Source: Peromyscus leucopus
Lineage: Eukaryota; Chordata; Mammalia; Rodentia; Cricetidae
DNA length: 64,000 nt
Direction of reading: 5' to 3'
Assembly (NCBI RefSeq): GCF_004664715.2
Contig: NC_051083.1
Span: 96,917,161-96,981,160 of the forward strand
The notes under the pieces were generated by a model. That model had not been told where the DNA came from and ran no database searches. It saw nothing but the letters and a program-made list of their open reading frames with translations. Numbering within the stretch: the stretch's first letter is position 1; each line of letters begins with the position of its first letter. Positions 44,293 to 61,277 of this stretch are shown piece after piece. The translations under genes and the position numbers were made by a program.

Positions 44293-44428
44293 TGAAAACA
44301 TAAGCTCCAAATAAATGCTTGCTTTTTAAACCTTCCTTGGTCATGGTGTCTTGTTACAGAATTATAAAAGTAACTAAGACATAAGACCAGAGCAGTCTAG
44401 GTATGTTAAAATACATGTATAATAAGAC
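44293..44428 (-). repeat. Left arm of a 137-bp inverted duplication
   Basis: The reverse complement matches 45203-45339 with two mismatches and one 1-bp indel (about 98% identity). It holds the start of a rodent interspersed repeat plus about 50 bp of unique flank. It abuts the 3' end of an L1 fragment. Confidence 0.9.
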
Positions 44429-45202: not shown

Positions 45203-45339
45203 GTCTTATTATACATGTATTTTAACATACCTAGACTGTTCTGGTCTTATGTCTTAGTTACTTTTATAATTCTGTAACAAGACACTATGACCAAGGAAGG
45301 TTTAAAAAGCAAGCATTTTATTTGGAGCTTATGTTTTCA
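45203..45339 (+). repeat. Right arm of the 137-bp inverted duplication
   Basis: Partner of 44293-44428. Here the sequence continues into the rest of the interspersed repeat, so this arm is the likely donor. The spacer is 774 bp. Confidence 0.9.
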
Positions 45340-45414
45340 GAGAGTTAGAGCCTATAACCATCATGAAAAAAATGGCACCAGGCAGGCAACCATGACATGT
45401 GAGCAGCAGCTGGG

Positions 45415-45891
45415 TGTAGTGGGTAGCTGTTCTAGCTTTGACCTGGAAGTACTACCCCCAGTGAGGCTTCTGGTAACTGTCATGCCTACTTATGACCTGC
45501 CCCTGAGGTGGGGCCAAGAGGGGAGCCCTTAAGACCCAAGATCTGGATGTGTTGGCTCTCTTGGTTCCTGGTGATCCTGGATGATGGATGGTGACCACAA
45601 AGGGACCCGAACGAACCCCCAATCTTCTGATGCAGGCTAGCTCAGTTGATAGAGCATGGGACTCTTAATCCCAGGGTCGTGGGTTCATGCCCCACATTGG
45701 GCACCAGATATTGGGGGATTTATTAAGGCAACTCCACGTACTTTAAAAGGAGGTTTATTTTGGGGGGTAACTTACAGCTAGTAAAGGGGTTGGTACAGGA
45801 TTCAGGAGAGGTGAGGTGCAGTCCAGCTGGGTTCTCTGAAGAACTCTGCTTGGTTTACTTCCAGGTCAAAGTTGGAACAGCTACCACTACA
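45415..45891. mobile_element. Palindromic LTR insertion: LTR(+), tRNA-Lys sequence, LTR(-)
   Basis: This 477-bp insertion has inverted ends (TGTAGTGG...CCACTACA) and is flanked by the 6-bp target duplication GCTGGG (45409-45414 and 45892-45897). Left part (45415-about 45634): an LTR-like unit reading TG...CA on the plus strand. Middle (about 45635-45706): tRNA-Lys(CTT) positions 5-76 including CCA. Right part (45707-45891): a second LTR-like unit on the minus strand with AATAAA signals, ending CCCCCAATATC just before a primer-binding-site-like TGG. The two units share about 37 bp at the outer ends and CCCCCAAT near the inner ends but differ between. The host is a rodent interspersed repeat whose sequence resumes exactly after removal. 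It contains no gene. Confidence 0.8.
45635..45706 (+). pseudogene. Reverse-transcribed mature tRNA-Lys(CTT) sequence
   Basis: The sequence matches tRNA-Lys with anticodon CTT (45664-45666) from nucleotide 5 to 76. The A box (TAGCTCAGTTGATAGAGC) and B-box region are recognisable. It includes CCA at 45704-45706, which eukaryotic tRNA genes do not encode, so it derives from mature tRNA. Compared with the canonical sequence as I remember it, changes at positions 17, 57, 66 and 73 are CpG-decay type; position 19 is G to A; position 58, the m1A site, is A to T. The first four bases are TGCA rather than the acceptor GCCC, so it is not a working gene. Confidence 0.75.
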
Positions 45892-46574
45892 GCTGGGAGC
45901 TCACATCCAAATCCAAAATCAAGAAGCAGAGGCTGCACTGTCAATGTCAGGAGGCTTTTGAAGCCTCAAAGTCTTCCCCCTTTTTACATCTCCAAGGCTA
46001 TACTTCCTATTTCTTCCAAGTCAGTGCCATAAACTAAGGACCAATAGTCAAACAATTGAGCCTACAGAGTTATTGTAATTCAAAGCACAAGCTTTGGCTC
46101 AAATATTGGATTTCCTGGTGTTCTTTTTCTCTCCAAACTGTACATTTTGTACTTCTTTTACTCCTGCATATAGACCTGCATAAGAGTGATTACTAGTAAC
46201 CATGCCACTGAGCCAATATTAGGCTGTGTTGAAATCTTTTCCACCAAAGAAATTAATTCATTACTTTTCAATTTAGCCTCATGCAAATTCTTAGACCAAG
46301 GGCAGAATCAATCAGATTCTTTGTCAAAATATCATAGGAATGTCTTCTATTCTAGTTGCTATCAAAGTCTTTGCTTCTTTCTGAGGCCTCTTGAGCAGGC
46401 CCTCCACAGTGGCTCTGGAGATTATTGTCTTCCCAGCTTCTATGATGGCCCATTAAACTCTGCTTACACTATTAAACCAATTTTCTAGTCCAAACTCTTT
46501 CACATCCCTACAAAAGTAACACATATGATCAGGTCTATCACAGCGAGAGTCAACTCATAGTACCATAGTACCAA

Positions 46575-46955
46575 CTTCCGTCTTAATTTATTTTTCTATT
46601 GCTGTGATAAGACACCATGACCACGACAACTTATGAAAGGTTGTTTGACTGAAAGTTTCAGAGGGTTGGAATACATGCCCATCATGATGGGGAATATAGC
46701 AACAGGCAGGCACTCATGGTGCTGGAACAGTTGCTAAGAGCTTACAGCTTGATTCATAAGCATGAGGCAGAGAGAGCTAACTGGGAATGGTATGGGCCTT
46801 AGAAACCTCAAAGCCTGCTCCTAGTAACACATCTCCTCTAAAAAGGCCACCCCTCCTAATTTTCCCTCAAACAATTCCACCATATGTATTCATAGGATTG
46901 TGTATAGCCAAACATGAACCCGTGGGGATCATTCTTATTCAAACCACCACATCTT
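46575..46955 (+). repeat. Rodent interspersed repeat, fuller copy
   Basis: It reads 'attgctgtgataagacacca' at the start and ends 'attcaaaccaccaca'. Same family as the copy at 45250. Confidence 0.7.

Positions 46956-53445: not shown

Positions 53446-61277
<7,832 letters not shown>

Follow-up and report, generated by a model that had tools for sequence, protein, structure and literature searches.

How does a copy of a mature lysine tRNA, 3' CCA included, come to lie between two head-on LTRs in a rodent genome? The locus that raises this question was picked out by an earlier, sequence-only reading of a 64,000-nucleotide stretch of Peromyscus leucopus DNA (contig NC_051083.1; hereafter, the window). 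Comparison with the rest of the genome indicates that it is very probably the integrated product of an aberrant reverse-transcription event, in which strong-stop synthesis of an endogenous retrovirus (ERV) primed by tRNA-Lys(CTT) read through into its primer and then jumped template.

Anatomy of the window element

The window element is an insertion of 477 bp (45415-45891) with the terminal sequences TGTAGTGG...CCACTACA. Its outer 37 bp match in inverted orientation at 34 of 37 positions, and both flanks carry the 6-bp motif GCTGGG (Table 1). The sequence-only reading had described this unit, its inverted ends and its flanks, all of which were confirmed by sequence reading. It had also placed the insertion inside a repeat, and a paralogue of that repeat supports this: it spans the insertion point without the insert and contains the hexamer region once, in diverged form (GCTAAG versus GCTGGG).

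Table 1. Features of the window element and its surroundings (window positions).
Feature	Position	Strand	Basis
Target-site duplication GCTGGG, left copy	45409-45414	none	supported by empty paralogue
Left arm: truncated LTR, positions 1-174, U3 end outward	45415-45588	+	match to relatives
tRNA-Arg (TCG-like) nt 38-76 including CCA, reverse complement	45589-45631	-	alignment score
GCA between the Arg and Lys tRNA copies	45632-45634	none	probable origin given in text
tRNA-Lys(CTT) nt 5-76 including CCA	45635-45706	+	Rfam, alignment
Right arm: reversed LTR (TC spacer, LTR 328-181, then 37-1)	45707-45891	-	comparison with relatives
Target-site duplication GCTGGG, right copy	45892-45897	none	flank reading
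Empty copy (paralogue) of host repeat	46580-46865	+	alignment, 64% over 297 columns

The left arm matches the 5' part of the LTR, wholly or partly, in all 20 relatives fetched (L031-L050). At the point where it stops, ordinary LTRs have TGGTAGACC and the insert has the tRNA-Arg end TGGTGACC; tRNA-Arg may thus have primed inside the LTR at a look-alike site. The tRNA-Arg match scores 50, compared with 28 for the top of 2,000 shuffles and at most 24 elsewhere in the window (one overlapping tile of the same match excepted). The reference is an assumed tRNA-Arg sequence, which ARAGORN folds as tRNA-Arg(TCG); among the tRNA references, the one compared with a host gene is Lys(CTT). The end of the copy adjoins G37, which we take to be m1G in tRNA-Arg of this kind. 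The PBS sequence tggcgaccacgaagggac, which the tRNA-Arg part resembles, is attributed to tRNA-Arg in an extract of published work (PMC11905727). The GCA that follows is probably either untemplated or a remnant of Lys nt 1-4.

The tRNA-Lys part scores 42.6 bits as tRNA in Rfam, in keeping with the initial claim of a tRNA-Lys(CTT) running from nt 5 through CCA into a reversed LTR, while ARAGORN predicts no tRNA gene in the 64-kb window. Its CCA adjoins the reverse-complement LTR end via the TC spacer, in the window element and its relatives alike, which is the arrangement of a PBS. The right arm, 185 bp long, lacks LTR positions ~38-180 relative to ordinary ~328-bp LTRs; this 143-bp gap shows GTA microhomology near 45855 by eye. 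As in an LTR retroelement, the LTR ends start with TG and lie beside a short direct target duplication, yet both are U3 ends instead of one U3 and one U5. Nor does the element resemble a tRNA gene or tRNA-derived SINE, which would lack CCA and have A58, whereas here CCA is present and nt 58 is changed. The tRNA-Arg at the inner end of the left arm, the incompleteness of both arms and the many relatives of the LTR family were absent from the sequence-only reading.

Two further features of the window are recorded here. An inverted duplication of ~135 bp adjoins the insertion (44293-44428 and 45203-45339); its copies lie 774 bp from each other at the closest point and are 98-100% complementary over two pieces. 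On the minus strand, an open frame of 137 aa at 53966-54379 has a C2-domain match of 17.8 bits, below the Pfam cut-off of 22, and no PDB sequence match; it may be an exon of a gene for a C2 protein.

The arms belong to one LTR family

We searched the 477-bp unit against its own genome (2.475 Gb). Among the best 40 of 5,652 candidates, which were scored, there was one full-length match, the unit itself. The LTR is complete at ~328 bp in ordinary copies and unites both window arms, as judged from the 20 copies fetched first. Because these genome copies join both, the arms represent different segments of a single LTR, which bears out the LTR identity proposed for the outer units. An earlier idea, that the arms came from separate LTR families with 37 bp in common, was dropped on the same observation.

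By eye, the solo LTRs L040, L046 and L048 run from TG to CAATA and have 6-bp duplications, while none is visible in L042, L050 and some other copies. Ordinary copies L071, L081 and L092 have a short tRNA-Lys PBS followed by an unrelated leader, with no tRNA body. L057, a provirus of this family, contains RVT_1, RVT_thumb, Integrase_Zn and rve in separate open pieces. In L084 (1192-1408), tandem partial copies of the 5' part of the LTR precede the LTR. Scans of viral contigs for the LTR edge or PBS gave 0, 2, 19 and 1 stretches; none is a relative, because the longest BLAST match between the unit and these 22 loci did not exceed 30 nt.

Dozens of loci carry a whole tRNA-Lys

Three queries were used to collect loci with a tRNA body. 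With the LTR end plus tRNA (best 40 of 2,587 candidates scored), 34 loci were inspected; the tRNA body is entered in 23 and absent in 11, and in L076 the tRNA copy reaches only nt 39. A query from L078 (best 40 of 3,364 candidates scored) gave 38 of 40 places extending beyond the PBS, the 2 without a tRNA body being excluded; 7 of the 38 were already in the set, and the other 31 all have the tRNA. Mature tRNA-Lys as query (best 40 of 1,267 candidates scored, 20 fetched) gave 19 tRNAs with CCA, here termed young loci, and one ordinary gene (L142). With this gene left out, 73 loci were read, or 72 once L105, a duplicate of L101, is dropped.

Thus, at least 72 distinct loci in this genome carry a tRNA-Lys body with CCA, at least 67 of them beside the LTR family of the window. 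These counts are lower bounds and not frequencies, because each search was limited to its best 40 candidates, ranked by similarity to tRNA-bearing queries. Past the LTR comes the complement of the primer tRNA, which extends beyond nt 58, as expected of strong-stop read-through. In loci beside this LTR the CCA lies at the LTR-PBS boundary, L114 and L119 being among the few with a mutated PBS start. Among the young loci, 14 of 19 adjoin an LTR of the window's family (tip score ≥36). Since the CCA neighbour of the other five (L124, L131, L134, L138 and L139) does not match this LTR, the sequences suggest that read-through may extend beyond one family. Rfam, run on 19 loci, recovered the tRNAs, along with 3 SRP-like, 1 miRNA, 1 snoRNA and 2 scaRNA matches, all below family thresholds.

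Palindromes recur with their own junctions

An inverted LTR tip ends at least 11 of the 72 loci. Eight were identified by alignment score (≥36, where reversed probes reached at most 27 over 54 loci): L060, which is the window element, L077, L078, L093, L103, L104, L106 and L121. L130 was also identified by score (36), and L100 and L136 by short inverted tips together with a duplication, their arms of ~9 and 11 nt being supported by the duplications and not by alignment score. The 11 palindromes differ from each other in arm lengths, bridge or junction. The bridge of L077 contains tRNA-Glu, that of L100 contains tRNA-Gly and a leader-like piece, and that of L106 includes a piece that matches the leader in short reversed stretches; in L130, a 149-nt arm that equals its LTR except for one gap is joined directly at tRNA nt 1.

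Because at least 11 of the 72 loci are palindromes, with arm lengths and a junction particular to each, palindromes are a recurrent product and not a copied unit. The sequence-only reading had offered either a rare single event or a family spreading as a palindrome, and neither describes what was found. Its proposed search of the 477-bp unit, run on this genome, indeed returned no second full-length copy among the best 40 of 5,652 candidates, yet palindromes recur. We likewise dropped a one-off event, given the many separate loci in the genome.

Perfect 6-bp duplications flank 7 of the 11 palindromes (L060, L078, L100, L106, L121, L130, where it lies in a C run, and L136). The tip hexamers of L103 and L104 match at 4 of 6 positions, L103 also having a perfect hexamer 52 nt farther out, and no duplication could be assigned at the tips of L093 and L077. 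In the region of L077:1355, the left U3 end is expanded by GTGGA tandem repeats, which mask the duplication. Three non-palindromic loci with a U5-type end (L116, L118 and L125) have a perfect hexamer 4, 14 and 21 nt past the tRNA, and provirus L061 has a hexamer match of 5/6. A search for matching hexamers within 250 nt had 18 hits, and two controls had 6 and 12; taken alone, hexamers are therefore weak evidence.

What follows the tRNA 5' end is also informative. Six of 54 junctions contain a copy of another tRNA, namely Arg, Lys(TTT), Glu, Gly and, in two cases and starting from its CCA, Leu(TAA). Both Leu(TAA) copies end at about nt 58-60. Outside the 54, L143 has a tRNA-Glu-like piece by eye. 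Weak tRNA matches in L075, L111 and L113 were excluded by judgement as SINE-like. In L111 and L113, a SINE-like sequence with an A tail splits the tRNA copy, which resumes beyond it. Before tRNA nt 1, L132 and L133 have a common flank that breaks off a few dozen bases short of the joint; from there the sequences diverge, both ending in CCA.

TGG, the complement of CCA, directly follows nt 1 in 10 of the 36 loci that end there, although in L093 it is LTR sequence. In L127 the tRNA 5' end gives way to a long T run and then to repeat-like sequence. L075 also has a T run after the tRNA 5' end, with CACTGCA and a matching hexamer 530 nt farther, and both T runs look like the trace of a jump by the enzyme onto a poly(A) tail. 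Reverse transcriptases can pass from the end of one template to that of another (end-to-end template jumping), and the TGG and T-run junctions fit this behaviour.

Position 58 of the tRNA is selectively changed

Over the 72 loci, position 58 of the tRNA is T in 51, G in 8 and A in 13. The 53 older loci have 37 T, 4 G and 12 A, and the 19 young loci 14 T, 4 G and 1 A. Other A sites in the older loci kept A in 578 of 592 cases, and transversions elsewhere numbered 59 in 3,633. CpG transitions account for many of the other changes (in the first 23 loci, for 106 of the 151 transitions at positions other than 58). In 18 of the 19 young loci, position 58 is the sole change in 76 nt relative to the mature tRNA; the nineteenth, L124, retains A58 and is altered at nt 33. 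Young loci were chosen by similarity and an unchanged copy would have outranked them, but the only 100% match among the best 40 of 1,267 candidates is the gene L142, over nt 1-73. This is the only host tRNA-Lys gene read; its position 58 is A, and it lacks CCA. In the window element both tRNAs are altered at nt 58, Lys by A>T (45688) and Arg by A>G in the tRNA sense (45607), the latter with a 4-nt duplication nearby.

An extract of a review (PMC13191261) ascribes m1A58 to all retroviral primer tRNAs, naming Lys3 and Arg and not Lys(CTT). Reverse transcriptases that pass m1A misinsert, and the mismatches for m1A followed by G are low in C, according to part of PMC4787781; the sampled loci, with no C among their position-58 changes, agree with the pattern given there. 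Deletions at m1A are also known (PMC7144921, in part). The position-58 changes therefore seem to be a footprint left by a chemical modification of the primer tRNA, and we infer that m1A caused them. The 13 loci with A58 may stem from unmethylated primers or from correct bypass; among the palindromes, A58 is kept in 4 of 11 (L077, L078, L104 and L121). The same review extract describes the product reaching the tRNA 5' end as the one from unmodified tRNA (PMC13191261).

Mechanism and alternatives

The window element can be accounted for as follows. Plus-strand strong-stop DNA would pass m1A58 and copy the primer tRNA-Lys(CTT) to near its 5' end. The resulting 3' end would be unable to make the normal second strand transfer, and reverse transcriptase would jump template. 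In the window element, the target would have been a second plus-strand DNA consisting of LTR 1-174 and a tRNA-Arg copy stopped at nt 38. Copying this DNA to its U3 tip would yield a duplex with a U3 end on both sides, which integrase could use because the jump template is itself a plus-strand DNA copied to the U3 tip; insertion would make the 6-bp duplication. The order of the jumps and the co-packaging are our inference, and the 143-bp gap in the right arm probably arose during reverse transcription and not later. The same failure would have occurred many times in this genome, with inverted LTRs, other tRNAs, poly(A), proviral interior and short U5 ends as its outcomes. The core of the sequence-only reading, namely a primer-derived tRNA, read-through to near its 5' end, a head-on second LTR and two U3 ends with a 6-bp duplication, is supported.

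Four alternatives deserve consideration, the first being that a whole-tRNA PBS was fixed once in the ERV lineage, A58T was inherited and the palindromes are later rearrangements. A58T is indeed common to most loci. Moreover, on an LTR tree of 46 rows and 45 distinct loci (L030 and L046 being the same locus), the read-through label is clustered, with only 5 of 500 shuffles equally low, and one supported clade contains eight read-through loci, the ordinary copies of that clade lying outside the tree sample. However, the label is scattered over this tree, with 10 changes; 0% of 200 bootstrap trees have one, and the starred branches alone force 3. In ordinary copies L071, L081 and L092, a short PBS is followed by an unrelated leader. 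Among loci with a common interior, the tRNA joins it at different points: relative to L081, at ~792 (L089), 991 (L072), 1265 (L068) and ~803 (L069, after a 37-nt piece including tRNA-Lys(TTT)-like sequence), and relative to L071, at ~620 (L062, with GCCAGGC homology at the joint) and ~870 (L065). By best alignment the tRNAs fall into two isodecoders, with 44 and 9 loci and partly mixed stems (for example, L059 and L063), and T, G and A all occur at position 58. Finally, the 19 young loci differ at the joint before nt 1, with a tRNA otherwise perfect in 18. We regard a single fixation as very unlikely. That the palindrome itself is a mobile family is harder still to credit: the eleven palindromes share an architecture and have differing duplications, as such a family would, but they vary in arms, bridge or junction, and the window unit is its own only full-length match among the best 40 of 5,652. 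In addition, the transcript of such a palindrome would lack direct R repeats and so offer the first strand transfer no acceptor.

The alternative closest to ours, which overlaps with it in all but the joining step, holds that two complete LTR-tRNA products were end-joined as double-stranded DNA and later trimmed by post-integration deletions. Long inverted repeats are prone to deletion, neither arm of the window element is complete, and a 3-nt GTA microhomology is seen at the right-arm gap. Against this, the boundary of the left arm is a copied tRNA-Arg CCA and not a random deletion point, and the 149-nt arm of L130 has one gap only and joins directly at tRNA nt 1; we consider end joining unlikely. 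An ordinary tRNA gene or pseudogene that chance insertion or recombination had placed between two LTRs would account for the Rfam score of the Lys part as tRNA, but hardly for a CCA, unlike in host gene L142, at the LTR-PBS boundary, for the selective alteration of position 58, or for a single 6-bp duplication around the entire unit. In our view the CCA joint and the recurrence refute this explanation, to which we give practically no credence.

Read-through and template jumping thus remain our preferred explanation, and we think it likely that this genome is a large archive of primer-tRNA copies, young ones included, that integrase accepts two U3 ends in vivo, with U3-U3 'strong-stop palindromes' forming a distinct class of insertion, and that nt 58 reports both the methylation of germline primers and the base inserted opposite. 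An extract of the review (PMC13191261) does not count strong-stop products that extend to nt 37 or to the tRNA 5' end among the usable templates; here, dozens of them are germline insertions. Because these products were left in the germline, a genome can reveal what becomes of strong-stop DNA, how integrase uses two U3 ends, where template jumps land and perhaps also whether a primer tRNA was once methylated. They also explain CCA-bearing tRNA copies beside LTRs, which annotation could mistake for tRNA genes.

Comparison with known systems

Literature searches restricted to open-licence PMC papers, with partial listings, found no title on LTR-tRNA-LTR insertions. Judged by these open-licence titles, known pieces (strong-stop read-through, m1A misinsertion and LTR insertion) combine here into a seemingly undescribed class of germline insertion. 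Experimental retroviral LTR-LTR palindromes and aberrant U3-U3 integrations present head-on LTRs or two like ends for integrase. The window element shares these features, but the experimental systems are not known to have a full primer tRNA bridge with a second tRNA, and we know of no such palindromes or U3-U3 integrations as a genomic class. Within this genome, the short-PBS copies (L071, L081 and L092) and solo LTRs (L040, L046 and L048) have the same LTR as the window element; the solo LTRs resemble it in their 6-bp duplications and the short-PBS copies in their tRNA-Lys PBS, but unlike it they have no tRNA body and no inverted LTR.

The nearest counterparts are the HIV-1/tRNA-Lys3 products P1, which ends at the tRNA 5' end, and P5, which ends at position 37, there at ms2t6A37, as described in an extract of the review (PMC13191261). 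Like the loci reported here, they consist of an LTR and a tRNA copy past m1A58. There, P1 and P5 are reaction products outside the active templates, P1 arising from unmodified tRNA, whereas the class to which the window element belongs is germline-integrated endogenous DNA, found at many loci and mostly changed at nt 58.
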